From Paenibacillus sabinae T27 (GTDB lineage Bacteria > Bacillota > Bacilli > Paenibacillales > Paenibacillaceae): DNA of 64,000 bases. The notes under the pieces are model-generated. The model saw nothing but the letters and a program-made list of their open reading frames with translations, had not been told where the DNA came from and ran no database searches. The stretch lies in contig NZ_CP004078.1 of assembly GCF_000612505.1 (NCBI RefSeq), positions 4,413,280 to 4,477,279 of the forward strand, in the 5' to 3' direction. The translations under genes and the position numbers were made by a program. Of the stretch, positions 1 through 48,850 are shown piece after piece. Positions within the stretch are counted from its first letter, which is position 1. Every line of letters starts with the position of its first letter.

Positions 1-94
1 TATAAAACCTAGCTATTTAGTATGAAATATTACTGTGACTACTGCCATTACAAATCACCTTGCGTCAAATGAGATAAGAGAGGATGGATAGCGA

Positions 95-1618
95 ATGGGC
101 AAGATCAATTTGAGGATGGCTGAAGTTCAGAATCGTGAGCGGCGGCTCGGCACCATCATCGCCTGGAACGGAACAGCATCGGATCTGCACACGCAATCAG
201 GCTATCAGCAAAGAGGAAGCGGATGTAAAAGCAATAAGGATGGATGCCGGCTGTGCGAAGCCAAAGGACCTTTCACTCAAGGCTCGGTATGCAGCGAGCA
301 AATGGTTGAATGTCAGGCAGGCAATGTCAGAGATGCGGTGCTGATCCAGCATTCACCGATCGGCTGCGGTGCCGGACAAGTTCCCTACAATTCAATCTAC
401 CGTAATGGATTGGCCATGAGAGGCCATAAAGTCGAGAATATTAGAATTATCAATACAAACCTGCAGGAGACGGATATGGTATTTGGCGCGCTTGGCAAAC
501 TCAAGCAATCCATTGACGATGCGTGGGAAAGGTATTCACCCAAAGCCATTTTCATCGGAACCTCCTGCCCTACCGGGATCATTGGCGAAGATATTGAGAG
601 TGTTGCAAGGAAGAAACAAGAGGAGCTGGGGATTCCCGTCATTCCTCTTTTCTGTGAAGGATTCAGATCGAAGCATTGGAGTACCGGCTTTGACGCGACC
701 CAGCATGGCATTTTGCGCCAGATTGTGAAAAAAAGCACGAAAAAACAAGAGGATCTTGTCAATGTCATCAGTCTTTGGGGTTCGGATATTTTCACCCCTA
801 TGTTCAAAGAGTTTAATCTAAGAGTCAATTATGTTGTCGATATGGCATCCGTCTCCGATCTCGAGCAATTGTCTGAAGCGGCGGCAACTGTAGGCTTCTG
901 CTATACGCTCTCTTCGTATATGGCGGCGGCGCTGGAGCAGGAATTTGGCGTGCCCGAAGTCAAAGCTCCGATGCCCTACGGCTTCGCCGGAACCGATGCA
1001 TGGCTTCGCGAGCTCGGAAAAGTCACCCATCGGGAAGAGCTTGTAGAGCAGTACATCGCGAAGGAACACGCCAGAGTGAAGCCGAAGATCGCCGAGCTCA
1101 AGAAGAAGCTTCAGGGGTTAAAAGGATACGTAGCTACAGGCTCCGCTTACGCCCACGGACTGATTCAAGTACTGAGAGAGCTGGATATTCAGGTAGACGG
1201 CTCACTGGTGTTCCACCATGATCCCGTTTATGACAGCGGCGATGCCAGAGAGGATTCATTGGGGCACCTGATTGAACATTACGGCGAGGTCCCGTCGTTT
1301 AATGTGAGCAACAGGCAGCAGTATCAATTTTACGGTTTGCTGCAGGAGGTCAAGCCGGATTTTATCCTGATCAGACATAACGGTCTCGCGCCGCTGGCTT
1401 CCAAGCTCGGTATCCCCGCAGCCCCGCTGGGCGATGAACATATCGCAATCGGCTACGAAGGCATCATTAATCTGGGTGAAGCGATTCTGAACATTCTCGC
1501 CCATAAAAAATTTCACGATGATCTGAAAAAGCACGCAAAACTCCCCTACAAGCAGTGGTGGCTTGAACAAAAAGACCCCTACATTCTCTCCAAGCACCCG
1601 GAATTGATCGATGCGTAA
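95..1618 (+). CDS. Nitrogenase-like alpha subunit (NifD/NifE superfamily)
   Basis: A 507-residue protein of the nitrogenase component 1 superfamily. The three P-cluster-type cysteines of NifD are present as Cys66 (GSVC), Cys91 (SPIGCG) and Cys158 (GTSCPTGIIGED). Cys269 in GFCYTLSSYM lines up with the cofactor-ligating Cys275 of Azotobacter NifD. The His442 region is less clear: the nearest histidine is His449 in GDEH, about three positions off. The N-terminus has extra cysteines (Cys44, Cys51, Cys54, Cys73) that ordinary NifD lacks. A weak Shine-Dalgarno (agagga) precedes the start; a second ATG at 116 is possible. It forms an operon with the NifK-like gene 31 bases downstream. It is probably catalytic rather than a NifE scaffold, because both subunits keep a full cysteine set. 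Which clade it belongs to (Mo-independent nitrogenase-like, methylthio-alkane reductase-like, or other) cannot be decided here. Confidence 0.85.
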   Translation: MGKINLRMAEVQNRERRLGTIIAWNGTASDLHTQSGYQQRGSGCKSNKDGCRLCEAKGPFTQGSVCSEQMVECQAGNVRDAVLIQHSPIGCGAGQVPYNSIYRNGLAMRGHKVENIRIINTNLQETDMVFGALGKLKQSIDDAWERYSPKAIFIGTSCPTGIIGEDIESVARKKQEELGIPVIPLFCEGFRSKHWSTGFDATQHGILRQIVKKSTKKQEDLVNVISLWGSDIFTPMFKEFNLRVNYVVDMASVSDLEQLSEAAATVGFCYTLSSYMAAALEQEFGVPEVKAPMPYGFAGTDAWLRELGKVTHREELVEQYIAKEHARVKPKIAELKKKLQGLKGYVATGSAYAHGLIQVLRELDIQVDGSLVFHHDPVYDSGDAREDSLGHLIEHYGEVPSFNVSNRQQYQFYGLLQEVKPDFILIRHNGLAPLASKLGIPAAPLGDEHIAIGYEGIINLGEAILNILAHKKFHDDLKKHAKLPYKQWWLEQKDPYILSKHPELIDA

Positions 1619-1649
1619 ACAATGATTTTCATAGAAAAGGAGAACTACC

Positions 1650-3014
1650 ATGGCTGTTACCAAAAATGAGCACGGGCAGACCAATTCAATCAATCAAGTT
1701 CGCTACGGCTGTGCCGTCGGAGCCCTGTACAGCGTCGTATCCATTCCGGGCGCCGTTCCCATCGGCCACTGCGGACCGGGCTGCATGGACAAGCAATACA
1801 CCAGCCTGGCCTTTTACAACGGCTTTCAGGGCAGCGGGTATTCGGGAGGCTCAGTCTCTCCAAGCGTCAATGCCGGTGAGAAAGAAGTGGTGTTCGGCGG
1901 CGAGAAGCGCTTGGACGAATTAATTAAATCCACTCTTAAGATCATAGAGGGCGACTTGTTTGTGGTGCTGAACGGGTGCATCGGAGAATTGGTCGGGGAT
2001 GATGTTGGAGCGGTCGTCAGTAAATATCAGAAACAGGGAGTCCCCATTGTGTATGCCGAAACCGGCGGCTTTAAGGGCAATAACTTCGTCGGCCATGAGA
2101 TCATAACGACAGCCATCATTGATCAATACGTTGATAAATATGCGGTTGACAAGGACCACAAGGAACAAGGACTCATTAATGTCTGGTCGGAGCTGCCGTA
2201 TCAGAATACCTTCTGGCGCGGAGATTTGTCCGAGCTGAAGCGTATTCTGGAGGGCGCCGGTTTCAAAGTCAATATTCTGTTCGGCGGCAAATCGGGCGGA
2301 GTCGAGGAATGGAAGACGATCCCCCATGCCCAGTTTAATCTGGTCGTGTCGCCATGGCTCGGTCTGAAAACGGCCAAGCATCTGGAACAAAAGTACAATC
2401 AGCCGTATTTGCACATCCCTGTGTTACCGATCGGTGCGCAGCAGACAGCGGCATTTATTAGACAGGTCGTTGAGTACGCGGGCATTGACCCTGCAACAGC
2501 CGAGTCGTTTATCGAGCAGGAAGAAAAAGAATACTATTATTATCTGGAACATTTCAATGATTTCTTCTCCGAATATTGGTGGGGGCTGCCGGCAACCTAT
2601 GCCGTAGTCGGGGACAGCACGTACAATCTGGCCTTAAACAAGTTTCTGGTGAACCAGCTCGGCTTAATTCCAAGGAGACAAATCATCACCGATAATGCGC
2701 CGGAAAAATATAGAGAAGCCATCGCTCAAGAATATCAAAAGCTCGCTCATGATGTCGCCACCACGGTCGATTTTGTTGAAGATGGCTATATCGTCGGCAA
2801 ATTATTGAGAGAGACGGATTTCGGTCATAAGCCTCCGATTATTTTTGGAACAACATGGGAAAGAGACACGGCCAAGGAACTAAAGGGCAAAATTGTCGAA
2901 GTCGGATTTCCGGCGTCCTATGAAGTGGTTCTGAACAAAAGCTACATCGGCTACAGAGGCGCATTGCAGCTTATTGAGAAAATATTCACTGTCGCAATAA
3001 GCGCCAGCGCATAG
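1650..3014 (+). CDS. Nitrogenase-like beta subunit (NifK superfamily)
   Basis: A 454-residue NifK-family partner of the preceding gene. P-cluster-type cysteines are Cys21 (RYGCAVGAL), Cys41 and Cys45 (GHCGPGC), and Cys110 (NGCIGELVGDD), the last followed by the GDD typical of component 1 subunits. It is shorter at the N-terminus than molybdenum NifK (about 510-520 residues), as in alternative and nitrogenase-like beta subunits. A strong Shine-Dalgarno (aaaggag) lies nine bases before the ATG. A bidirectional terminator follows the stop, so the operon ends here; any further members (for example a reductase or NifB-like gene) would lie upstream of the window. The pair most likely forms an alpha2beta2 catalytic component served by a NifH-type reductase. 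Confidence 0.85.
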   Translation: MAVTKNEHGQTNSINQVRYGCAVGALYSVVSIPGAVPIGHCGPGCMDKQYTSLAFYNGFQGSGYSGGSVSPSVNAGEKEVVFGGEKRLDELIKSTLKIIEGDLFVVLNGCIGELVGDDVGAVVSKYQKQGVPIVYAETGGFKGNNFVGHEIITTAIIDQYVDKYAVDKDHKEQGLINVWSELPYQNTFWRGDLSELKRILEGAGFKVNILFGGKSGGVEEWKTIPHAQFNLVVSPWLGLKTAKHLEQKYNQPYLHIPVLPIGAQQTAAFIRQVVEYAGIDPATAESFIEQEEKEYYYYLEHFNDFFSEYWWGLPATYAVVGDSTYNLALNKFLVNQLGLIPRRQIITDNAPEKYREAIAQEYQKLAHDVATTVDFVEDGYIVGKLLRETDFGHKPPIIFGTTWERDTAKELKGKIVEVGFPASYEVVLNKSYIGYRGALQLIEKIFTVAISASA

Positions 3015-3052
3015 CTCTCGGCATGGCGCTGCTGCTGGAACGGCCTGGAAAT

Positions 3053-3092
3053 AGAGCGAAGACCCTCCCGAATCCAGGAGGGTCTTCGCTCT
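3053..3092. terminator. Bidirectional rho-independent terminator
   Basis: A perfect 16-bp inverted repeat (AGAGCGAAGACCCTCC at 3053-3068, complement at 3077-3092) with an 8-base loop. It sits between two convergent genes, the NifK-like gene (+) and the rRNA methyltransferase (-). Confidence 0.85.
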
Positions 3093-3102
3093 ATTGCCTT
3101 GT

Positions 3103-14991: not shown

Positions 14992-16170
14992 TTATACCTG
15001 GTAAGGCTGGCCTTTTCTTAGGATCGCGTATATGTGATGAAGCAGCTTGTTGGCGCAAGCAATCACCGCGACCTTGTAGGGCTTGCCTTCTTTCTTTTTC
15101 TTGTCGTAATAAGGTCTGAGTTTAGAGCAGTCGCCTCGCCTGAGACTACATTGTACAGCTAAATACAAGGCCCTTCTCAGACGTTTGGAGCCTCGCTTGG
15201 TAATTCGGTTGCTGGAAGCGGTGAATTTCCCTGAATTAAATACCCCAGGGTCCAGCCCTGCATAAGCCACCAACTGTTTCGGGCTTTCAAACTGCCGAAT
15301 GTCTCCCAATTCCGCTACAAGCGTAGCTGCCAGTTTTTCTCCAATCCCGGGAATCGTTCTCAGCAGTTCTGTTTCCGGCATTCCCATCGAAAGCTCCTGC
15401 ATCTGCTTCTCTAAGCGCTTTAACTGCTCTTGCAAGGAATGAAGTAGGGAAAGCATCCCCTCTAGAATGTAGACTTGAGATGAACTCACTTTGACCTGGT
15501 GCCATTCACTCAAGGCCTCCTCCACACGCTGAGCCTTTTCTTCCACCCACCACTTGGCATGTGACTGTCCTGCCGTCTTCTCCATCGTCTCGTACACCCG
15601 GTCTTCCTGACCCCGCAAACAACACTCCAGCACTCGCAGTGCCGTTTCCGAGTATAGATTATAAAATATTCCCTCGAACGCAGGGAACACCTGATCCAGC
15701 AGGGCCCGAGTATTGAGCTTCGCCTGTACATATAAACCCGTCACAAATTCATGCTGTCTGGTTACATGCTGAAGCTCGGTATAAACGTCTTCCGGAGTCC
15801 GGTGAGGCAGGATTTCACCCCGGTAATACATCTCGGCCAGATGCCAGGCATCCGCCGCATCCGTCTTGACTTTCCGGAGCTTGGTTCCTCTCGCTCTTTT
15901 GGACTGCAAGGGATTTACGATACAATGCCGGATTCCCTGCTGTACCAAAAAGTTCACTAGTCCCCGGTGGTAATGTCCCGTCGCCTCCAGAATAACCACG
16001 GGCTCTTGGCTGGTCTGTTCCTGCAGTTGCTCTACGCATGCTTTCAACCGTCCAAACCCTTTCGCTTCATGAACCATGACTTCGGTTTCCCCCCACGCTT
16101 CATTCCGCCCTGTAAAGGCTTGAAATACACTACTTCCCTTCGAAACATCCAGTCCAATAACCGGTTCCAT
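14992..16170 (-). CDS. IS110-family transposase
   Basis: A 392-residue DEDD-type transposase. The N-terminal RuvC-like domain shows IGLDVSK (Asp8), EATGHYHRGL and KTDAADAWHLAEMYY, giving the D-E-D-D set. The C-terminal Transposase_20 domain has LLRTIPGIGEKLAATLVAE, FESPKQLVAYAGLDP and KRGSKRLRRALYLAVQ, where the family's catalytic serine lies. The start at 16170 is chosen because GGAGG lies five bases before it; an in-frame ATG 13 codons upstream has no ribosome binding site. The gene looks intact, so the element may be active. Confidence 0.9.
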   Translation of the reverse strand: MEPVIGLDVSKGSSVFQAFTGRNEAWGETEVMVHEAKGFGRLKACVEQLQEQTSQEPVVILEATGHYHRGLVNFLVQQGIRHCIVNPLQSKRARGTKLRKVKTDAADAWHLAEMYYRGEILPHRTPEDVYTELQHVTRQHEFVTGLYVQAKLNTRALLDQVFPAFEGIFYNLYSETALRVLECCLRGQEDRVYETMEKTAGQSHAKWWVEEKAQRVEEALSEWHQVKVSSSQVYILEGMLSLLHSLQEQLKRLEKQMQELSMGMPETELLRTIPGIGEKLAATLVAELGDIRQFESPKQLVAYAGLDPGVFNSGKFTASSNRITKRGSKRLRRALYLAVQCSLRRGDCSKLRPYYDKKKKEGKPYKVAVIACANKLLHHIYAILRKGQPYQV

Positions 16171-16174
16171 AATT

Positions 16175-16370
16175 TCCTCCACTCTTTCAGTATTCGCCGG
16201 CACTCCCACGATGGTTCCAAACCCATAGCTTCGCTTGTGATGCGGGGTCCATTGCCCCTACCAGCTCAAACATGGTCATTGGAGGCAGTGGGAGAACAGT
16301 TTTTGCTCCGGGGTATATTCCCCTAAAAGACCCTCGTTCTCCCGGCTACCGCCATCTTAAAACAACTACA
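16175..16370 (-). ncRNA. Candidate bridge RNA region of the IS110 element
   Basis: The 200 non-coding bases before the transposase can form nested stems: GGGAGAAC (16290-16297) with GTTCTCCC (16336-16343), enclosing GGGG (16310-16313) with CCCC (16320-16323). IS110 elements are known to express a structured RNA from this end that pairs with donor and target DNA. The exact RNA limits and guide loops were not worked out. Confidence 0.4.
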
Positions 16371-28879: not shown

Positions 28880-29776
<897 letters not shown>

Positions 29777-29844
29777 TCATCCTCCAATATATTAGAATAC
29801 TTAAACTGTTTTATTGATACCAATTTCTGAAGCCGCCGTCGTCG

Positions 29845-30312
29845 TCAAATCCCTAAATCCTTGTAGAACTCGACGCTCTCCAGCAGCAGCTCTTCAATGC
29901 CGCCTTTACCGGAAAGTGCCACAATCCCTTTTTGCAAAAGCTTGCGCCTCGGCGAATCGCCGATTCCCGAGCACAATAGCACTTGGCAATCCCCGAGCAT
30001 AGCCGCCGTATGGTCAAAAATCTTCTTTTTGTCATCCGGACTGCTGCACTCGATCCTTCCGGTGCAATACGCTTCAACCTGGCGCACTTCCAATTGCTTC
30101 GTCTCTTGTCCAAAGACGTCATAGATCCAAAACTCGCTCGCGTGACCAAAGTGCACATTAACTTTTCCGCCGCCCCGTGTTGCAACAGCTATTCGGATCG
30201 CCGCAGGTTCGGATGCCGGAAGCTCAGCCGTTTTAGGCGTCTGCCCTTCGTCCGCCTGCTGCTTCTTAGCCGTTTGACGGCTCGATTCATCGGCGGCGTC
30301 AATTGTTTCCAC
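29845..30312 (-). CDS. NifX/NafY-family FeMo-cofactor domain protein
   Basis: 155 residues. After a polar N-terminal tail, residues 40-150 form a dinitrogenase iron-molybdenum cofactor-binding domain (IRIAVATRGGGKVNVHFGHA; LLCSGIGDSPRRKLLQKGI). This domain occurs in NifX and NafY and at the C-terminus of clostridial NifB, and the tail of clostridial NifB is the closest pattern I recognise. The GTG start at 30312 is preceded by aaaggagg with 7-base spacing; an in-frame ATG at 30348 has no such signal. It is first in the nifH transcript, behind a promoter with GlnR boxes. It probably carries a cofactor precursor to or from the NifEN-like scaffold. Confidence 0.8.
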   Translation of the reverse strand: METIDAADESSRQTAKKQQADEGQTPKTAELPASEPAAIRIAVATRGGGKVNVHFGHASEFWIYDVFGQETKQLEVRQVEAYCTGRIECSSPDDKKKIFDHTAAMLGDCQVLLCSGIGDSPRRKLLQKGIVALSGKGGIEELLLESVEFYKDLGI

Positions 30313-30361
30313 TGAAACGCCTCCTTTAGAAAGGTTAATGACAAGCATTGCAGAAGTCCCG

Positions 30362-30378
30362 TGTAATATTACATAACA
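30362..30378. promoter_or_regulatory. GlnR/TnrA box (exact match), downstream site
   Basis: TGTAATATTACATAACA fits the GlnR/TnrA consensus TGTNA-N7-TNACA exactly. It lies about 26-42 bases after the predicted transcription start of the nifX-nifH unit, the position where GlnR acts as a repressor in the characterised Paenibacillus nif promoter. Confidence 0.7.
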
Positions 30379-30410
30379 TTTTGCGAGAGTTGGTTTAACT
30401 CGTTAGAGCC

Positions 30411-30440
30411 ATATTAGACTTTGAAGACAAAAGCTGTCAA
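30411..30440 (-). promoter_or_regulatory. Sigma-A-type promoter of the nifX-nifH unit
   Basis: On the minus strand, TTGACA (30440-30435), an 18-base spacer and TAATAT (30416-30411). Transcription should begin near 30404, about 90 bases before the GTG start. Confidence 0.6.
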
Positions 30441-30488
30441 TGACGCTAAAGCGCATACATTGCTCTTTGACAAATCGTTCAAACACTG

Positions 30489-30505
30489 CGTCATATTAAC
30501 TCACA
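30489..30505. promoter_or_regulatory. GlnR-like box (one mismatch), upstream site
   Basis: CGTCATATTAACTCACA differs from TGTNA-N7-TNACA only at the first base. It lies about 50 bases upstream of the -35 hexamer, where an activating site would be expected. Confidence 0.4.
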
Positions 30506-30581
30506 TAAAGCTGCGATGATGCGCTTTCATTTCTCTAATTAATCGCTTACATTGTTAAAAAGAAAAGCGCAAAGGCTGCGC

Positions 30582-31877
30582 TTATCGAATGATTTCTCTT
30601 CCATTCAACAGAACATTTCCGAAATAATTCAACAATTCCGCCGTCCCCCGGTAGCCGACACTAACCTGAAATGACGAACCAAAGCGGTTAAACACGGGAA
30701 AGCCGAAGGGGATAAAAGGAATACCCCATTCTTCCGCCATCGATTCGCTGTACGAACTTCCGACCCATAAATCGGCAGCCTGCACCGGTTCTTGTTCCAA
30801 TATCCGCCGGTCGTGGATTTGCGCGGACAATGGCGAAGAAAACACCGGCTCAAACGACTTAACACCGACTTCCGAAAGCCACTGGGACAGCGAGCGCAAA
30901 TGGTCGGCCTCTAGCGCCGCGACTATTCTCTTGCCTCTAAACGTTGAGCAGGTATCCAGCATACAATCCAGCAGGAACTGCCGCTGCCAGCGGTATTTAA
31001 CCTGAACCTCGTTTCCGCTCAGCTCCAGCAGGAATTGAAAAAATTCATCCGTCTCCTGCAGACCGGTTATTCCTTGGAATACACGATAAGGGATGTTAAG
31101 CTCTTTGCGGAGCAGCTTGGCGCTGGGCTCCATGCATCGTCCAACCGCTACGGTGAAGCCGGAACCGAGCATTTCCTTCAGATAGTCCAAGGGAACACCA
31201 CCCCGGGATAATGAGGTATGGCCTGTCAGCAGATGGCCCGTCAGCGAGGAGGACAGGTCGGGAAGTACGATCACCTCCATGCCGAACGAGGCGATGATTT
31301 CTTTTAATTCCATCACGTCTCCCGGTGTCAGGTGAGGACCAGGCAGGAGATTGATCCGGTTACGGTGTTTTTTGGGCAGTGCTTTGGGACGGGAACGGAG
31401 GATTTCTTCGATCACGGATTGGACAACCTGAGCGTAGCCCGATTCCATCGAGCCCTCACCATCCGGCAGCGACAAGGTCAACAGCAGCTTGTCTTCAAAA
31501 GCCTGCAAGTTTTCATCCAAATAACGCTTCGTTATTTCCTCCAAGTCCTCTCTGGCCGCAACCGTTAACGAAGTACCGATAATCGCAATCACATCCGGGT
31601 TATCCCCTGCGATCGCATGCTGAAGCGCTTCACAGACCGCATTGTTACCGCCCAGGATGACATCGGCATCCTGAATCGATATATTTTGTATGGACACCGG
31701 TTCCCTGAAGTGGCGTGACATAACGGTCCGGATGGCTTCAGCACATCCCGAGCCCCCGTGCAGAAGTGGCAGGGAGCGGTAAATCCCCTGAAGGGCAAGC
31801 ACGCCGCCGATCGTCTGGTTACCCAGCAGGAGATTGTCTGGCAGCGGTTCGTCACTCGACCTGAATGGTATAGACAT
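30582..31877 (-). CDS. nifN: NifN-like cofactor-scaffold subunit
   Basis: A 431-residue NifN-family protein. The region YRSLPLLHGGSGC keeps the single cysteine (Cys45) that in Azotobacter NifN helps ligate the O-cluster. The other two component 1 cysteine positions are Ser35 and Thr102, which is normal for NifN. It starts 3 bases after the nifE stop, so translation is coupled. It should pair with the NifE-like protein as an alpha2beta2 scaffold on which the cofactor precursor matures. The sequence is clearly divergent from standard NifN (IGTSLTVAARED where NifN has a TTGLSET-like motif). Confidence 0.82.
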   Translation of the reverse strand: MSIPFRSSDEPLPDNLLLGNQTIGGVLALQGIYRSLPLLHGGSGCAEAIRTVMSRHFREPVSIQNISIQDADVILGGNNAVCEALQHAIAGDNPDVIAIIGTSLTVAAREDLEEITKRYLDENLQAFEDKLLLTLSLPDGEGSMESGYAQVVQSVIEEILRSRPKALPKKHRNRINLLPGPHLTPGDVMELKEIIASFGMEVIVLPDLSSSLTGHLLTGHTSLSRGGVPLDYLKEMLGSGFTVAVGRCMEPSAKLLRKELNIPYRVFQGITGLQETDEFFQFLLELSGNEVQVKYRWQRQFLLDCMLDTCSTFRGKRIVAALEADHLRSLSQWLSEVGVKSFEPVFSSPLSAQIHDRRILEQEPVQAADLWVGSSYSESMAEEWGIPFIPFGFPVFNRFGSSFQVSVGYRGTAELLNYFGNVLLNGREIIR

Positions 31878-31880
31878 GGC

Positions 31881-33227
31881 TTACACCTCCCATGGCGGAC
31901 GGCGGCAGACCGTTTGCCAAACTGGCTGTTCCAAAATATCCATAAGGTCTTCAGCCATTCTCCGCAAGCCGGCGTAACCCGAATACGTCTTCCGGCGATC
32001 TTCATCAATATCCAGAAACGGTATTTTCTCTTTCAAAGGCACATAGGCGCTGCGTCCGCTGACGATCATCAGATCAGCCTGCCGTGACTCGTACAGCTTA
32101 AGCATGCTTTTTTCATCAATTTCCGTTAGGATCAGCGTATCCTCTTTGATTCTCTCCTTGATTCGCGATACATCTTCCCTCGCATTCGAATGGGTGCCTA
32201 TAGCCGTAATCCGCAGACCGAGCTCATGCAGCGCAGAGATATACAACCAGCTCTCTGACCCTTCCGTAAAGAGCATGACTTTTTTCCCCTTCAGTGGTTT
32301 GCAGGTCAAAGATATTTCCTTGCGAAGCCGCGCCTCCTCCTTGCGCATATACCGTTGAAGCCTGTCATCCAGCTCTGCATTCTGAAAATAATACGCCAGC
32401 TGACGCAGAGAGAACCGGATTTCATTGGACCCGAAGAAAGATCCCTCACAAAAAGGTATATCGAACGTATCCCTCATGTGCCGGGCCAAATTCAGCATCG
32501 ACCTTCCGCCTACAAGCATATTGACCTTTGCAAGATGTGCCGCACGCAGTTCATCAAAGGAACAATCTCCCCCGATTCGCGTCATTACACGGATTCCCGC
32601 CTCGGACAGCAAGCCTTCAATTTCCTTCATCTCTTGCGCAAACGGATACCCGCCGATTAAATTGATATCAAACGGAGTACATTCTTGGACTTCAACGTCT
32701 GCCGCACCGATCACCTTCTTGAATAAGGCTTCCCCCGCATATCGGTTCCCTATGTTCGGCCCCCCGGATAATCCCGGATTATCAACGGCGATGACTGGAA
32801 TCCCCCATGTCTTCTCCGCCTGTTCACACACAGCATTTAAATTCTCCATAGCAAAAACAGTAGAGCAGGTTGCATATACAAAAATACAGGGAGGATGGTG
32901 CCTCCTGATGATTTGGCCAATCATTTGCAGAAGTTTCTTCTCACTGCCGAGCGTGATATTTTCCTCCGTCATTCCCATGGAAAACACAAGCTTGGACAAA
33001 GATGCGCCAGGCGACTGGGCCTTCAGCATTCCCCAACCGTTCTGGAGGCAGCTTGCCGTGCCATGAACCAGATGCGCCGTATCCAAGATCGGCATCAATA
33101 CCGACTGTGAGCCCTGAAAAGCGCAGGGTTGTGTCCGCTCCCCGGGTTTGGGACTGGAGCAGCCCATTTTATCCGGGCAATGATTGTGCTCGCAAGCAGG
33201 TTCAACAAATAAGCCGGAATGATGCAT
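31881..33227 (-). CDS. nifE: NifE-like cofactor-scaffold subunit lacking the cofactor-ligand Cys
   Basis: A 448-residue NifE-family protein. The three O-cluster cysteines are present: Cys35 (CAFQGSQ), Cys60 (HGTASC) and Cys121 (VYATC). The position of Azotobacter NifE Cys250, which binds the cofactor precursor, is Gly240 in VNMLVGGRSMLNLARHM, although the surrounding sequence aligns closely (IPFCEGSFFGS). The GDD after Cys121 is also replaced (STVFAMENL). The ATG at 33227 is chosen because GGAGG lies seven bases upstream; an in-frame GTG at 33245 lacks a signal. It is the first gene of an EN-type operon. It may be a specialised scaffold for a non-standard cofactor, or a drifting paralogue. 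Confidence 0.82.
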   Translation of the reverse strand: MHHSGLFVEPACEHNHCPDKMGCSSPKPGERTQPCAFQGSQSVLMPILDTAHLVHGTASCLQNGWGMLKAQSPGASLSKLVFSMGMTEENITLGSEKKLLQMIGQIIRRHHPPCIFVYATCSTVFAMENLNAVCEQAEKTWGIPVIAVDNPGLSGGPNIGNRYAGEALFKKVIGAADVEVQECTPFDINLIGGYPFAQEMKEIEGLLSEAGIRVMTRIGGDCSFDELRAAHLAKVNMLVGGRSMLNLARHMRDTFDIPFCEGSFFGSNEIRFSLRQLAYYFQNAELDDRLQRYMRKEEARLRKEISLTCKPLKGKKVMLFTEGSESWLYISALHELGLRITAIGTHSNAREDVSRIKERIKEDTLILTEIDEKSMLKLYESRQADLMIVSGRSAYVPLKEKIPFLDIDEDRRKTYSGYAGLRRMAEDLMDILEQPVWQTVCRRPPWEV

Positions 33228-33345
33228 CAGATAACCTCCAATCACACAGTTTATATCTATTTATATTTAAACATAATTAATCCTCATCATTTATAACATT
33301 TTTCATTTATTTAGCATTCATCAGTTTCAAAAAAAAGAAAAAAAT

Positions 33346-37549: not shown

Positions 37550-39709
37550 TTAGGCTGACGGTATGTTGACCATTGCGATTTGGTCTCCGAATGTGTTGTA
37601 CATCTTTAAATTACCGGTCGAAGGATCGTAGGATAGGTTAACGCCGGCGCTGTACTGGATTCCGGTCGCGAGGCTGTTAACGTTATCTAACTCTTCGTAA
37701 ATGGGTTCGAGCATCGGTTCGTTAACCGCGTTACTGCCGTTTATTAAGACATTCGGAGCTCTTAACGATAATGTCTCCGGTCCCCATATATCGAGGTAAC
37801 CCGGATAAGTCGCCAGTGATCCGATGACCACTCCGCCAGCTACAAAGCGTACGCCCGGCGCTCCCGATATATCCGTCTCGATCTTGACGTAGTTGCTTGC
37901 GTCTCGATATGCCGCGAATAAATTATCGGTGTTACTGATCTCAGCGCATGGATAGACACCGCCAGCCGCCGTCCTGATGTGTGCCCCGGTTATTGTACCG
38001 CCGCTAATCGTTGACGCTGATATCGACCCGCTAAAGTTACCGTCTACCGCGCTCATGATTCCGCCGCTTGTAACGGTGAACATACCGCTGCCGACGTTAA
38101 TCGACGAACCGACGATCGCACCGTCCGTAAAGTTTGACGAATTGATATGCGCATAGTTGGCGGTCAGGCTGTTCGCGGTTAGGTTTCCGGCCATGTCCAA
38201 GCGGAACGGTGCGCTGTTGAAGTCTGCATGGCCTGCGCTAATTCCGTTCGTGTTGATCTTGACTACGTTATTGTCTGCGCCGATAACCATGCTGACGAAG
38301 TTACCGAGTTGGCCGATAACCTGTTCCGCTGCGACTCCGTTAGCCGTAATTGCTGTCCGGGCCGTAGCTCCGCCGTCCGTCGAAATAACGATGCCGTTCG
38401 ACGTTAATAGTACGAGGTCGTTCGCGTCCGCTGTCGACTGCAGGACGATCCCGCGCGTATCATACTTGACCTCCGTTTTAGACGCGGTCACGTCTATTAC
38501 CGCCAACCGAGCGAACTCTTCGAACACGTCCGCCCGAATCCGCCCACCGCTGAACACGTTGTCGACCGTCCGTCTACTCGTCTCCAAGTCCGCTAGAATC
38601 TGCGTAAAATCTCGCCGCATGACGTTCGCAACGGTAAGCTGCGTATGCTGGTCGGCCGCGTACGGATATTCTGTCATCTCCGTGATTCGCGCTGTAATTC
38701 CGGTCAGGCCGAGCGCAGGATCGACGAGCGTAACGGTATCACCGAGGCCCGGCCGCGCTTCGTCCTTATCGATCTTGAATAAATCTGCAGCCGATACGTT
38801 GACTTCGAGCGCCGGTACTTCGCGTTCAGCCAAGCGTAAGCGCGCCGCCTCGAGCAGTTTTAGCGGATCGGTAACGTCTTGCTCCGTCAATAAATCGTCA
38901 TAATACGGAACGCTATCCGATGACCAATCCGCAGCATATTGCGATACAAGATAGTTGACCGCTAGATTGCCTGCGCCGTCGATTGCGCCCGGTATCGCCT
39001 CTAAACGCGACCGTTCTTCCGGCGTTAAAATTGACGCAGGCTGTCCGATCCAAGTCCGCGAGTCTTTCATTTCGCAGAATAATCGCGTACACAAAGAAGC
39101 GCCGCTGTCCGTAAATGAAGCGGTCAGCAGATTACGTGTAACCTGGACGCGGTAATCCGACGCGGAGTCTCCGATCTTCTTGCGGACATGCAGCGTAAAG
39201 TTATCCGGTTCGACTTCCGCTCCGTATAGCGTCAGGACTGCGTTGAGTGATTCGAGACAATTGCCGCCGCCGAACGCCTTGACGTCCGCTAGGTCGAACG
39301 TGTCATCGACCGCAATAGAAAAGCGCCCACCCGTTGCGGACTGGATGAGCGCTGTTAATTGCGTGATATGGATACCGTACCCTTCCGCCATGTAGGACGC
39401 GTACGGAAACTTGTAATCCGCCAGTTTGAACATAACGTGAGAACACGATATCTGAGCGGTCAGCTTACGGTCCTCACGGTTACGCTGGCGGCTATTGATA
39501 ACGTAATACTGGCCGCGCTCGTCCTTAACGTGACCTTTGAGCGGTAATTTATCGCGGAAGTCATCGGATGACATCGGGACCGAGAACGTTAAAGTATCGT
39601 CTGCGTTAATCCGCCTGGTCCGCGTAATATCGTAAGCGTCGCGTAAGATTCCGATCCGCTGGAAATGGCGGTCGTACGATTGTAGTGTAGCGGCGTTTCC
39701 GTTAATGAT
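37550..39709 (-). CDS. Tail-associated (Tal/endopeptidase-type) baseplate protein
   Basis: About 719 residues. The N-terminal 380 residues form a Prophage_tail/gp18-like hub domain (GQYYVINSRQRNREDRKLTAQISCSHVMFKL; TVANVMRRDFTQILADLE). A Gly/Ser/Thr/Asn-rich beta-helical fibre part follows (ITANGVAAEQVIGQLGN; GGIMSAVDGNFSGSISAS). It caps the tail and contacts the cell surface. The start is odd: the full anti-SD match aaaggaggtga is followed eight bases after GGAGG by ATC (39709-39707). The only standard start in frame, GTG at 39718, overlaps the Shine-Dalgarno itself. Confidence 0.85.
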   Translation of the reverse strand: MINGNAATLQSYDRHFQRIGILRDAYDITRTRRINADDTLTFSVPMSSDDFRDKLPLKGHVKDERGQYYVINSRQRNREDRKLTAQISCSHVMFKLADYKFPYASYMAEGYGIHITQLTALIQSATGGRFSIAVDDTFDLADVKAFGGGNCLESLNAVLTLYGAEVEPDNFTLHVRKKIGDSASDYRVQVTRNLLTASFTDSGASLCTRLFCEMKDSRTWIGQPASILTPEERSRLEAIPGAIDGAGNLAVNYLVSQYAADWSSDSVPYYDDLLTEQDVTDPLKLLEAARLRLAEREVPALEVNVSAADLFKIDKDEARPGLGDTVTLVDPALGLTGITARITEMTEYPYAADQHTQLTVANVMRRDFTQILADLETSRRTVDNVFSGGRIRADVFEEFARLAVIDVTASKTEVKYDTRGIVLQSTADANDLVLLTSNGIVISTDGGATARTAITANGVAAEQVIGQLGNFVSMVIGADNNVVKINTNGISAGHADFNSAPFRLDMAGNLTANSLTANYAHINSSNFTDGAIVGSSINVGSGMFTVTSGGIMSAVDGNFSGSISASTISGGTITGAHIRTAAGGVYPCAEISNTDNLFAAYRDASNYVKIETDISGAPGVRFVAGGVVIGSLATYPGYLDIWGPETLSLRAPNVLINGSNAVNEPMLEPIYEELDNVNSLATGIQYSAGVNLSYDPSTGNLKMYNTFGDQIAMVNIPSA

Positions 39710-39729
39710 CGCAATCACCTCCTTTACGG

Positions 39730-44521: not shown

Positions 44522-47500
44522 TTAAACATCTTTGATTCCCATCGACTGCAGCCTCGAAGCAGCCCGGACGCGTTCGTCGTAAAACGTCTGAACATCGACC
44601 TTATCCGTAAGAACAACCTCGTTAGCCCCCATGTCGATATTATTCGTAATATATGTCGGTGCTGCGGGAGCCTGCGCTGCTAGTTTAGGAACGGAGAGCA
44701 TGCTGAATAGCACACTCTGTTGTTGCGGCGTTAATATAAGTTCTTGTGCGTGCGCGATGACTGGAACCGCCTGGCCGTACGCACCCTTAACAACGCCGCC
44801 GTCCGCGAAGTGCTGCAGCTTACCGGTGTCCTTCGTAACGCTGTACTTCGCGCGTAACTCCGCATTCCGCGCCGATAACCTCGCCATTTCCGCCGTGTTG
44901 CCGGCCGCTTTCGCCGCGTTATACGCATCCTTGTTCGCGTTATACTCCGTGATGTCTAGCGCTTCCTGCGCCTCGGCTCGGGCGGCCGTTATTACCGCCA
45001 TCTTCGCGCTGTATTCCGTTACGAAAGCGTCGAGTCCCGTAAGAATATCCGCATTAGCGCTGGCGGCGGAAGACACGCGGAACGCCGAGATGCCCGCTTC
45101 AATCGTTTTGATATCGCCGCTATACGAGTCAAAGGCGGCCATGAGCGCGTCGTACTGCGCTTCGGTATCGGATTTCTCCTTGTCGAACGCGGCCTCTTGC
45201 GCATCCTTTTCGTCCTTGAGCGCTTGCTGCTGCGTTTCGAGCGTGCGGTCCGCTAAGTCGCGGTCGTGTTCGAGCTGCATTTGCGCGATCTCTTTAAGCA
45301 GCGCGTCGCGTTCATCGATGCCCGGCTGACCGACTGCGGACTGCAATTCGGAGAGGCGTGCGTTTTTCTCCGCAAGCTGCGTCGCATAGTCGGCGTCCGA
45401 ATTGATCGTTTTGTTAGCATCGCGTAGCTTCTGGATAGCGTTAATGCGCGCGTCGTAATCGTCGAGTGCCGCCTTCTTGCGCTTTTCAATTGCGTCGATG
45501 TCCGCTTGCTTCGCCTTATCGATCGCTTTCTTTTCCGCGTCAACGAGGGCGTTAACGACTTCCATACGCTGCTGCGCCAGGTCTTTGCGCGCTTCGTACA
45601 GCTCCTTATCGGCCTGTTCGTAATACTCCGTGTTCGCGGCGTATTTGTTTCGAACCCGAGTCCACGCATCGATCTTCATTTGCGCGACTTCCGATTCGGA
45701 CTTGCCGGCGTCTGTCATGCGGCGTTCCTCTGCATCAATAAACTTCGCAGAAGCATCGTACTGGTCCTGCGCTTCCTTTTCCTGCGCGGCCGCTACGTCC
45801 TTACGGGATTGGCGCACTTGTTCGTCCGCTTTCTTGTAATATTCGGAGTCCTTACCGTAGCGGTTACGGAGACGCGTCCAACTTGCGAGCTTTGTTTCTG
45901 CGATTTGGAGCTCGGTCTTACCGCTGTCCTCCATACGCTTTTCCTCCGCATCGATCCACGTTGCCGAGAAGTCATAGCGCGATTGGACGCTGTCTTCCTG
46001 CAGCTTCTTGATTTGAAGCGTCAGTGTTCGCGCATCGTCAACGGACTCTTTGAGGAATTGTGCGTGTTTCTTCCGCAGTTCTTCATATTTCTTTATCTGC
46101 GCATCAGCGGATAAATCGTAAAACTCCGATTGGAACTGTACCGTTTTAAGATCGGCTTCGTACGCGGCCTTACGCGCTTCGGCTGCGAGCTCTTCCGGCG
46201 TCTTACCCGTTTTGGGCTTCGTTGTTCTCTGCTTTTTCGGCTTCGATAGGTCAACGCCAGCCCCGGTCGTTCTGCCGGAAAATGCGTCCAAGTTTCCGCT
46301 CGTTAGTGCGGACCTCTGCGCTTCCAATTCGTTAAGCGCCGATTGTACTTGGTTCTGTTCCGGATATAGCGCGTTGAGTCGTTGCTGCCCGCGAGCGTAT
46401 ACTTTCTCAGACGCGAGCGAGTCCGGATGGGTTAGCGCTGAACTTCCGGATGCGCTAATAACGGCGTTCATCGTTTTTAGCAGCGCTTGATAGTTCGCGA
46501 TTTGCGCCTCGATAGCGGCTTTCTGCGCTTTCGTCGTACGTTCCATCTGCTCTATGCGTGCCTTTTCGACTTTAAGCGTACCATCGAGTAAGCTGCGTTC
46601 GGCATTCGCCTGTGTCTCCGCTAGATTGATATTCGTAATACGGATGTTGCCCTCTTCGTCCATTACCGTGTGTAGTCCGGGGTACTGCTTGATTAACGCA
46701 GCGGTAGCGGCTTGTAATTGTTCTTTTTGGCCGGCGTCGAGTTTCTGCGCATTAGAGAGCTTCTTATACGTAGCGATGTTCGATTCAATCGAGGTTAACC
46801 GTTCGTTACTCGCGGCTGCTGCCTGCAAATTGGCGCGCTCCTCCTGCAATAACGCCGGAACCGAGTCGTTAATCGCCTTGTTCATCTTCGCAATCCCGCC
46901 CGCTGCGTCCTCGCCGCTCGCGTACCCCAAATCGCGCAATCTCTTGTCCGCAGCGTCGAGCTCATCGTTCAGCTTCGAGAGTTCCGCAGCTCCGGCCCGC
47001 CAGTCCTTTCCGGTATTTCCGCCTTTCAGGTTCGCAATCCTCCGCTCGATCGCTTCACGGTCGCGTAGTGCCTGCGTAGTTTCTTCGATTCTGCCGCGCA
47101 AGTCTTCGAGATCGCCAGTTGTTCGCGTTAACGGCGACTTACTGAGCGCATCGTTCAGAGACGTTTGTGCTGCCGCAAAGTCTTCCGCAGCCTTTTTCGT
47201 CTCTGCGTATTTGCCCGCGAGTGCTGCTGCGCCCGCTGCTAACGCGGAAATGGCGATTGAGATTGCGCCGATAATCGGGATGCTTGCGGTAAAAGCCCGC
47301 ATACCGACTCCCGCAATAGTTGCGGAAGCTGCAACCTCTTTCAATACGGCAACGAGCGAAACCCCAGCCGCTATCAACCCGCCTATAATCGGTCCCGCTG
47401 TAGTAAACGCGATGATTGCGCCCTGCATCGGCGTATTCAGATTCGTAAATCCGTTGATTAGGCCCGTAATCTGCTCGACGACCAACCGGACGGCTGGCGC

Positions 47501-48805
47501 AAACTTATCGCCCACCGTGATACCGGCGGATTCGAGCGCGGACTGCATCTCGTTAGCCGCGCCTTTGAGCGTGTCCATTTGCGTTCCGGCGACTTGTTCG
47601 GCCGTACCGCCTGCGTTTTGAAGCGATGCCGTGTACGACTCGAGCGTTGACTGGCCGTTAGAAATCAACGTTAGGAATCCGCTTGCCGCCTCTTGGCCGA
47701 CGAGCGTTGCGGCGACGTCCGCTTGCTGCGCTTGAGTCAGACGGGAAAAGGCCCCTTGCATCTGACCGATGATCTGTGCGAATGGGAGGACGTTTCCGGC
47801 GCTGTCTTGGATTGAAACGCCGAGTTTATCCATGTAAAACGCAGCCTCTTCGGACGGCGACGCGAGTTGCAGAAGGATAGCGCGTAATGACGTGCCCGCT
47901 TGCTCACCGCGAATACCGGCGTTGGATAGCGCCTCGACTGCTGCCGACGCTTCTTCGATGGACAGGCCCATATTTGCAGCAACCGGTGCGACGTACTTCA
48001 TGCTTAGGCCCAGGTCCGAAATGTCTGCGTTAGAGTCGATTGACGCCTTCGCCAGTACGTCAACGACGCGCCCTGTCTCTTCCGTTTCTAAGCGGAACCC
48101 GTTCAGGACGCTTGACGCAATGCCAGCCGTTGTCGCAAGGTCCATTTGACCAGCGGCAGCTAACGACAGTACGCCAGGCAGCGCCGTCATAACGTCATTC
48201 GTTTTAAATCCCGCCTGTGCTAAGAGGGCCTGCGCATCTGCCGCTTGCGAAGCGCTAAATACCGTTGACGCTCCGAGTTGTATCGCCTGCTCACGTAGCC
48301 GCTCGAACTCTGCTCCGGTCGCCTGCGTAATCGCCTTGACCTTCGCCATTGCCTGCTCGAACGACGCCGCTGTCTGAACGGACTTCGTAATAATCGCCGC
48401 CATCGCAACGGCAAGTCCGATATAGGCCGCGCCTAACGCTTTGACTTCGTTCGCTGTCCGGTGTGTGGATAGTGCGTTCCGTTCGATCTCCTTCGCGACC
48501 TTATCGATTTCCGCTGCGCTTGCGCCAAGCTTACGCATCTCGTCCGTAACGGCTGCGATCTGTTTGCGGAGTAATTCCGGATTCGACCGGCGGAGAGCAT
48601 CGTTAATTTTCGTAATCTGAGCGGAAGATGCACCGACATCCTTGAGCGCCATATTAAGGCCCATGAACGACGCTTCCGCCTGGTGCGCAGAGTGGCCGAG
48701 TTCTGACGCCTTCTTCTTCGCCTGCTCTACGCCGGCTGTGTATTGCGAGATATCAGCGGTTATGACCGCCCTAATGCCGGCGACTTCTGTTGCTGCGGTA
48801 TCTAT
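44522..48805 (-). CDS. Tail tape measure protein
   Basis: About 1427 residues. A coiled N-terminus is followed by the TP901 tape-measure core (about 150-480; GASTVFSASQAADAQALLAQAG, TTAGIASSVLNGF), hydrophobic segments (about 455-565; PIIGGLIAAGVSLVAVL) and long coiled coils. A tandem repeat of about 60 residues occurs near 960-1090 (FIDAEERRM / WIDAEEKRM). It sets tail length and helps DNA entry. At about 1.5 angstrom per residue the tail should be near 210 nm. The longer reading from TTG (48826) has no ribosome binding site; ggagaggtga is followed by ATA at 48805-48803. Confidence 0.9.
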   Translation of the reverse strand: MDTAATEVAGIRAVITADISQYTAGVEQAKKKASELGHSAHQAEASFMGLNMALKDVGASSAQITKINDALRRSNPELLRKQIAAVTDEMRKLGASAAEIDKVAKEIERNALSTHRTANEVKALGAAYIGLAVAMAAIITKSVQTAASFEQAMAKVKAITQATGAEFERLREQAIQLGASTVFSASQAADAQALLAQAGFKTNDVMTALPGVLSLAAAGQMDLATTAGIASSVLNGFRLETEETGRVVDVLAKASIDSNADISDLGLSMKYVAPVAANMGLSIEEASAAVEALSNAGIRGEQAGTSLRAILLQLASPSEEAAFYMDKLGVSIQDSAGNVLPFAQIIGQMQGAFSRLTQAQQADVAATLVGQEAASGFLTLISNGQSTLESYTASLQNAGGTAEQVAGTQMDTLKGAANEMQSALESAGITVGDKFAPAVRLVVEQITGLINGFTNLNTPMQGAIIAFTTAGPIIGGLIAAGVSLVAVLKEVAASATIAGVGMRAFTASIPIIGAISIAISALAAGAAALAGKYAETKKAAEDFAAAQTSLNDALSKSPLTRTTGDLEDLRGRIEETTQALRDREAIERRIANLKGGNTGKDWRAGAAELSKLNDELDAADKRLRDLGYASGEDAAGGIAKMNKAINDSVPALLQEERANLQAAAASNERLTSIESNIATYKKLSNAQKLDAGQKEQLQAATAALIKQYPGLHTVMDEEGNIRITNINLAETQANAERSLLDGTLKVEKARIEQMERTTKAQKAAIEAQIANYQALLKTMNAVISASGSSALTHPDSLASEKVYARGQQRLNALYPEQNQVQSALNELEAQRSALTSGNLDAFSGRTTGAGVDLSKPKKQRTTKPKTGKTPEELAAEARKAAYEADLKTVQFQSEFYDLSADAQIKKYEELRKKHAQFLKESVDDARTLTLQIKKLQEDSVQSRYDFSATWIDAEEKRMEDSGKTELQIAETKLASWTRLRNRYGKDSEYYKKADEQVRQSRKDVAAAQEKEAQDQYDASAKFIDAEERRMTDAGKSESEVAQMKIDAWTRVRNKYAANTEYYEQADKELYEARKDLAQQRMEVVNALVDAEKKAIDKAKQADIDAIEKRKKAALDDYDARINAIQKLRDANKTINSDADYATQLAEKNARLSELQSAVGQPGIDERDALLKEIAQMQLEHDRDLADRTLETQQQALKDEKDAQEAAFDKEKSDTEAQYDALMAAFDSYSGDIKTIEAGISAFRVSSAASANADILTGLDAFVTEYSAKMAVITAARAEAQEALDITEYNANKDAYNAAKAAGNTAEMARLSARNAELRAKYSVTKDTGKLQHFADGGVVKGAYGQAVPVIAHAQELILTPQQQSVLFSMLSVPKLAAQAPAAPTYITNNIDMGANEVVLTDKVDVQTFYDERVRAASRLQSMGIKDV

Positions 48806-48850
48806 CGTAATCACCTCTCCGGGCAAAAATAAAAGCGCCCGTTAAAGGCG

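Follow-up and report, generated by a model that had tools for sequence, protein, structure and literature searches.

Identity of the nitrogenase-like gene pair

Does the nitrogenase-like gene pair near the start of the analysed stretch of Paenibacillus sabinae T27 encode a nitrogenase, or a reductase of another kind? The stretch, called the window here, is 64,000 nucleotides long (contig NZ_CP004078.1, positions 4,413,280 to 4,477,279). An original prediction, made from its letters alone, had judged that the pair does not fit molybdenum NifDK and had named methylthio-alkane reductase (MAR) as one hypothesis. Both open reading frames (ORFs) are where it had placed them, the alpha or catalytic subunit at 95..1618 (+ strand, 507 amino acids) and the beta subunit at 1650..3014 (+ strand, 454 amino acids). 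The pair is one of five nifDK-like pairs in the genome. It is, taken as a whole, best explained as the methylthio-alkane reductase MarDK, with a probability of about 0.85, and the genes are designated marD and marK.

The alpha subunit was matched to MarD of Rhodospirillum rubrum (PDB 9FMG and 9D9U) with 838 bits and an E value of 3e-251, the next chain among the matches listed having 131 bits. For the beta subunit and R. rubrum MarK of the same two entries, the values were 699 bits (chain 9d9u_C) and 3e-209, with 78 bits for the next chain listed. The first Foldseek match of alpha was 9fmg_A, "Methylthio-alkane reductase complex", with 72% identity. In a tree of 34 alpha-type proteins, the window protein and R. 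rubrum MarD are in a clade of 14 rows with 100/100 support, and NifD, NifE, and a Nostoc protein counted as VnfD because it passes the NCBIfam VnfD cut-off lie beyond another 100/100 branch. This phylogeny was built on alpha only; CfbD, AnfD, and BchN were compared outside the tree by PDB and NCBIfam scores.

The working residues of MAR were taken from the structure paper of the R. rubrum enzyme (PMC12552129). All 12 tested MarD residues, which belong to the P-cluster, the cofactor ligands, and the pocket, are kept in the window alpha subunit. The P-cluster ligands Cys66, Cys91, and Cys158 have the same numbers in both proteins, and the pocket residues Cys73, Gln74, His194, Trp195, Phe199, and His375 (here 374) are identical in six of six cases. 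The cofactor ligands Cys270 and His429 correspond to residues 269 and 428, and Arg428 of Loop I to residue 427. All three P-cluster cysteines of MarK (32, 56, and 121 in R. rubrum) are kept as Cys21, Cys45, and Cys110. Across 72 MarD sequences with more than 60% identity, ten of the 12 residues are invariant, Cys73 is present in 71, and Arg428 in 70, with Lys in the other two.

The cysteines of the alpha subunit are at 44, 51, 54, 66, 73, 91, 158, 187, and 269, and those of the beta subunit at 21, 41, 45, and 110. The P-cluster positions predicted earlier are thus ligands in alpha (66, 91, and 158) and at beta 21, 45, and 110, but beta Cys41, named there as a possible position, is outside the published ligands; the choice of Cys269 as the cofactor cysteine was borne out by alignment to the R. 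rubrum numbering. It had also been stated that a His442 equivalent is lacking. By position this is right, as the His442 position of NifD is not conserved in MarD (PMC12552129), but by function it is not, as MarD provides the histidine from another place, the extended Loop I, where His428 immediately follows Arg427. Arg427-His428 (1373..1378, + strand) is aligned with Arg428-His429 of R. rubrum MarD, a proposed MAR hallmark and second cofactor ligand.

The PDB comparison, the residue test, and the alpha tree all agree that the pair does not fit molybdenum NifDK; in the tree, alpha falls outside NifD, VnfD, and NifE, and the MAR hypothesis is supported by the same three lines. The term "uncharacterised", used for the reductase, was too strong, because the family is characterised in R. 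rubrum (PMC12552129). With about 70% alpha identity and common P-cluster, cofactor, and pocket residues and N-terminal cysteines, the window pair appears to be an additional member of this known family, its activity being predicted from sequence. The structural reading of the cysteines relies on that identity to a solved structure and not on the AlphaFold2 model of alpha, which has a mean predicted local distance difference test score (pLDDT) of 66, with residues 37-78 below 50, and is too poor to place them.

By analogy with the R. rubrum enzyme, a NifB would build an [Fe8S9C] cluster that contains neither molybdenum nor homocitrate, and Cys269 and His428 would bind it in MarD. An Fe protein, either the MarH-type NflH_2574k described below or a nif-type NifH, would hydrolyse adenosine triphosphate and send electrons to this cluster via the P-cluster, formed by MarD Cys66/91/158 and MarK Cys21/45/110. 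At the [Fe8S9C] cluster, (2-methylthio)ethanol, dimethyl sulfide, or another methyl thioether would be cut to methanethiol and ethylene or methane, and the methanethiol could enter methionine synthesis through an O-acetylhomoserine sulfhydrylase-type enzyme. The role predicted from sequence is therefore sulfur scavenging by cleavage of carbon-sulfur bonds, with small hydrocarbon gases given off.

A MAR-family reductase with the same clusters could also have another substrate in vivo, with or without sulfur. Two other alpha-type proteins of the genome, NflD_3128k and NflD_3302k, share the Arg-His loop and the P-cluster cysteines and have altered pockets, so the substrate range plausibly varies, and R. 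rubrum MAR works slowly in vitro, at 2.3-7.9 nmol per mg per min (PMC12552129). This reading is nevertheless unlikely, as the window protein keeps all 12 R. rubrum residues tested, and these are invariant or nearly so in the set of 72 MarD sequences.

N-terminal cysteines of MarD

Four extra alpha cysteines (44, 51, 54, and 73) had been described as unusual. They are present, but they are not peculiar to the window protein and occur MarD-wide. Cys73 is aligned with the active-site Cys73 of MAR, which together with Gln74 replaces Val70 of NifD. Cys44, Cys51, and Cys54 are in an N-terminal insertion of about residues 40-58 (212..268, + strand), which has at least three cysteines in 71 of 71 anchored MarD sequences and is missing from all 20 non-MarD rows of the same alignment. 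The 71 sequences are 70 from loci (genomes and loci of the comparison have G- and L-numbers here) and that of R. rubrum. Two of the 73 rows were not anchored: the ORF of L102 extends far upstream, and its three cysteines were counted separately, and L120 has a divergent motif, with three cysteines also at its start. Ahead of the first P-cluster cysteine, 68 sequences have three cysteines, two have four, and one has five. On the evidence of these alignments, the N-terminal cysteines are a MarD signature.

The positions are less uniform. A cysteine at -12 from the first P-cluster cysteine is found in 70 of 71 sequences, being shifted by two residues in L106. A CxxC at the fixed positions -15/-12 is found in 47 and not in 24, R. 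rubrum and L106 included, the latter scored as non-CxxC only through the two-residue shift of its CxxC. The CxxC label requires two changes on the alpha tree, one of which was judged to vanish if L106 joins the 47. In the CxxC form, the first cysteine of the insertion ranges from -18 to -25, and in the other form the middle cysteine is moved upstream. The window MarD has CxxC where R. rubrum MarD has an upstream CxxxC.

An additional metal site in the MarD-only insertion is conceivable, because three or more cysteines are always kept while the places of two of them vary, a pattern that metal ligands in a flexible loop may show. The insertion would then form a lid above the active site that binds an iron-sulfur cluster or zinc and takes part in cluster loading or gating. 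A flexible N-terminal region is mentioned in PMC12552129, and the passages of its text that were searched, figures excluded, do not mention N-terminal cysteines or zinc. An [Fe4S4] cluster in the insertion could contribute to the g 1.96 signal (midpoint potential -390 mV), which that paper assigned to half-built P-clusters. Against such a site speaks the reported iron content of 32.6 +/- 5.3 Fe per Mar(DK)2, already explained by the P- and [Fe8S9C]-clusters (PMC12552129), and the proposal is a tentative one of low probability. For the existing cryo-electron microscopy data, the three-cysteine insertion poses a well-defined structural question.

Candidate Fe protein and NifB partners

R. rubrum has a marBHDK gene set (PMC9147875), whereas the ten Paenibacillus genomes with marDK lack marH- and marB-type genes close to this pair. 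Upstream nifH- or nifB-like genes, proposed as a check in the original prediction, were sought and not found: in none of the ten does the fetched DNA around marDK, 8.3-18 kb, contain a NifH- or NifB-type gene. Likewise, no NifH-type gene adjoins marDK in Heliophilum (L072; PMC9147875), which has one NifH-like gene, unlike P. sabinae with its classical nif operon and several NifH genes. On the single contig of P. sabinae T27, 16 PF00148 ORFs, five strong NifH-family matches, three full-length NifB (none near marDK), and one C-terminal NifB piece were counted, which fits the published gene set of this strain.

The first candidate for the Fe-protein partner is NflH_2574k. Its best PDB match is 9fmg_D, the Fe protein of the MAR complex, with 492 bits (next 284). 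It was found at 87-100% in 16 of 16 genomes with NflD_3128k, including all ten with MarD, and in G074, G040, G048, G008, and G073 a stretch of no more than 9 kb contains its gene together with NflD_3128k and a NifB gene. In a survey of 100 genomes of the genus, MarD (at least 97%) was in 10, NflD_3302k in 12, and NflD_3128k in 16, with at most 15 candidates scored per genome, and NifD was in 55, each set being nested in the next.

At 75 marDK loci outside the genus, six-frame analysis of the fetched DNA revealed an Fe-protein gene in 46 and a NifB gene in 38. Among the ORFs picked were O-acetylhomoserine sulfhydrylase-family genes (at 32 of these loci), cysK-like genes (at 21), Ssu-type/ATP-binding cassette (ABC) genes (at 21), and metK (at three). 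These lists are incomplete, because the ORF picker is greedy, misses some real genes (e.g., marD of L052, L053, L059, and L061), and picked marD itself in 67 of 75.

Besides the lack of NifH- and NifB-type genes around marDK, several observations weigh against the MarDK reading. The nesting is weak evidence of shared function, as the genomes may be one clade. The Fe proteins at the 46 loci are MarH-type in 27 and nif-type in 19, the latter including Propionispira L047, the nearest relative, and many Clostridium and Selenomonas loci, and therefore a nif-type NifH may serve P. sabinae marDK instead. No additional NifB type was intact across all ten MarD genomes: four of them (G018, G019, G099, and G050) have the NifB_3350k type in partial or interrupted form, and the nif-type NifB was not found in the drafts G022 and G099.

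A split operon, in which NifB_3350k, a transporter, and NifH_3355k would be the missing half of mar, was suggested by similar marDK flanks in the Clostridia L092 and L115, and was rejected as the simple reading. The transporter (at least 87%) is in 12 of the 100 genus genomes, exactly those with NflD_3302k; the two genes are at most 3 kb apart in G050, G090, G092, and G073; and NifH_3355k beside the transporter is full-length at four of 12 loci, in fragments at three, and not found at five. In G019, G018, G099, and G053 (L153, L149, L152, and L151), it is fragmented or not found there. The NifH_3355k fragments and the partial or interrupted NifB_3350k in G018, G019, and G099 suggest decay of that system.

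Promoter, operator, and probable sulfur control

A sigma-A-like promoter is at window -41 to -12 (genome 4413238-4413267), just outside the window start. It consists of TTGACA and TATACT (TATAAT in G099), which are 18 bases apart (17 in the nine relatives), and is followed at 5..28 (+ strand) by a quasi-palindromic operator, AAACCTAGCTATTTAGTATGAAAT, a candidate of CymR type. Its 18-base core, CCTAGCTATTTAGTATGA, is invariant in 10 of 10 Paenibacillus genomes. When the P. sabinae genome was scanned with three mismatches allowed, three of the four strict copies not at marDK were upstream of sulfur genes, namely those for a sulfate ABC transporter substrate-binding protein, cysH, and metK-nflHDK. 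On this evidence, marDK is likely under sulfur control.

CymR is proposed as the regulator. It is encoded at genome position 3920085, with B. subtilis CymR (2y75) as the best PDB match (E 6e-60), and in Bacillus subtilis this protein is a repressor of the genes by which cysteine is made from sulfide, sulfonates, and methionine (PMC3828012). The operator and the B. subtilis cysK site of CymR, as quoted in PMC11487621, have 17 of 26 bases in common (shuffle p 0.027 in P. sabinae).

The case has weak sides as well. The scan gave five sites against one for the reversed control, which are small numbers, and the closest other copy (one mismatch) is upstream of a chemotaxis/sensor-like gene located after ssuE, not a sulfur gene. 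The similarity to the cysK site is marginal over the ten genomes (shuffle p 0.003-0.38), and in G018 the best match is off the operator. A looser pattern gave 39 sites and 41 in the control, so no excess, and its count was not used. Its seven sites with at most two mismatches are at marDK and cysH, at the chemotaxis-like gene, at genes for an alpha/beta hydrolase and for a pyridoxal phosphate enzyme (the latter site overlapping another ORF), between luxS and a MetQ/NlpA-like gene, and, in one case, inside an ORF. The products of cysH, metK, luxS, and ssuE and the sulfate-binding protein pass their NCBIfam cut-offs, and the MetQ/NlpA-like protein is below its own. Eight P. sabinae loci, searched at Rfam gathering scores, gave a tRNA as their only match and no riboswitch.

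Conservation and neighbourhood of marDK

The marD gene is under strong purifying selection, with nonsynonymous divergence (dN) of 0.004-0.015 and synonymous divergence (dS) of 0.10-0.46 against nine relatives. All ten genomes share a stretch of about 160 bp upstream of marD at 78-97%, which is shorter in G019. Downstream of marK, eight of them have about 80-145 bp in common, and G018 and G099 diverge almost at once. Beyond the shared piece, at least 150 bp of the next 2.7 kb are common in four of 45 genome pairs upstream (one with just 204 bp) and in three of 45 downstream. With as much as 7 kb of upstream and 6 kb of downstream sequence compared, the ten loci represent seven neighbourhoods, and counting the 204-bp match of G019 and G071 lowers this number to six.

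Recent interspecies transfer of a marDK cassette was considered and is not firmly supported. The dS of marD to P. sabinae is lower than that of trmH in seven of seven pairs measured, and lower than or about equal to that of ssuA in nine pairs. The trmH-like neighbour of marK has a SpoU methylase domain in the domain search. In eight genomes, its 5' flank is common in 28 of 28 pairs and its 3' flank, which in P. sabinae is the marDK site, in 0 of 28. Changing flanks are therefore not unique to marDK. A strong hairpin 3' of marK (3050..3095, + strand; -40.3 kcal/mol, z -8.3 against 200 shuffles) is likely a terminator common to marK and the convergent trmH-like gene.

The loss of dedicated marH and marB could have left the pair inactive or moribund, as the lack of NifH- and NifB-type genes around it in all ten genomes might suggest. 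This is very improbable given the strong selection on marD, the conservation of promoter and operator in every one of the ten genomes, and the MarH-type gene, which all 16 genomes tested carry. It is hardly credible that the pair is an alternative nitrogenase or a NifEN-type scaffold, with which the complete P-cluster cysteines and the cofactor cysteine would agree, as the alpha subunit is far under the NCBIfam cut-offs for nifD (145 bits against 653), nifE, vnfD, and anfD and apart from such proteins in the tree, Trp195 and Phe199 occupy the positions of NifD Gln191 and His195, and a nifD mutant of Klebsiella did not regain nitrogenase activity from nifD-like genes 1-5 (PMC4246453).

Relation to published work

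In the parts of PMC9147875 used here, MarDK is assigned to heliobacteria, and only NflDK/NfaDK of P. riograndensis are named from Paenibacillus. The heliobacterial pair (NflDK5) is likewise a Firmicute MarDK beside other NflDK pairs (PMC9147875). Among the literature matches listed, no title or abstract opening named MAR in P. sabinae, which is not proof of novelty. The two Paenibacillus genome papers of 2014 left the nifDK-like pairs unexplained; according to one (PMC4246453), the nif-like genes are not controlled by ammonium or oxygen and could not restore N2 fixation.

With MarDK as the preferred reading, one formerly unexplained nifDK-like pair can be named, in a soil diazotroph that is in culture and belongs to a facultatively anaerobic genus. 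Ready assays exist, namely ethylene from methylthioethanol and methane from dimethyl sulfide. Ethylene inhibits plant growth, and if the enzyme is active, root-zone Paenibacillus would be an ethylene source under sulfur shortage.

Other nitrogenase-like genes and features of the window

The cofactor cysteine is kept in four of the five nifDK-like pairs of P. sabinae, and the same four have a histidine in another loop. Cys275 has been reported as not conserved in the NifD-like proteins of this species (2014 genome paper, PMC4246453), a statement that therefore fails for those four. NflD_3128k is 47% identical to the window alpha subunit and keeps 11 of the 12 MarD residues, with His194 changed to Ile. 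NflD_3302k (39% identity) keeps the three P-cluster cysteines, Cys270, Arg428-His429, Trp195, Phe199, and His375, and has Gly-Tyr in place of Cys73-Gln74 and Ile in place of His194. Both pairs thus share the cofactor cysteine, the Arg-His loop, and the P-cluster cysteines with the window pair, but differ from it in the changed pocket and in having no three-cysteine insertion. NflD_2571k keeps the ligand cysteines and a loop histidine, without the arginine.

NflD_4577k has a single P-cluster cysteine and no cofactor ligand. It resembles in this IsrD of isethionate reductase, which has one P-cluster cysteine and no cofactor ligands, unlike the window pair (PMC11423573). IsrDK is likewise a Group IV nitrogenase-like, sulfur-linked enzyme (PMC11423573).

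The Arg-His loop was also found in non-MarD proteins of Pectinatus, Sporomusa, Treponema, Chlorohelix, and a Ruminococcaceae genome in the 34-row alignment, and is therefore not exclusive to MAR. As it reaches at least two further families, there are more candidate [Fe8S9C] enzymes than MAR itself. NflDK_3128k, a close MAR relative, is a second candidate for a carbon-sulfur reductase. At its locus (L031, genome 3127353-3131915), it adjoins a NifX-like gene and an O-acetylhomoserine sulfhydrylase-like gene, the product of which scored 494.6 against the NCBIfam cut-off of 495.1.

A Group IV set, metK-nflH-nflD-nflK, is at L033 (genome 4568000-4587000, NflDK at 4576178-4578992), with genes for a flavin adenine dinucleotide protein, a 4Fe-4S ferredoxin-type protein, and an ABC transporter nearby. 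This set shows the ligand pattern similar to IsrDK, and one of the marDK operator copies is upstream of its metK. Within the window, a second nifE-nifN-'nifB'-nifH cluster is at 28880-33245, and its NifH is identical to that of the nif operon over 288 amino acids. Its 'nifB' (about 29845-30348) covers only positions 298-437 of the 441-position NifB profile, which is a NifX-like C-terminus without the radical S-adenosylmethionine part. An IS110-family transposase is encoded at 14992-16209, about 12 kb downstream of marDK. A possible prophage is at 36213-60000 (approximate limits), with a tail endopeptidase domain at 37550-39718 and a phage minor tail protein domain at 44522-48826.

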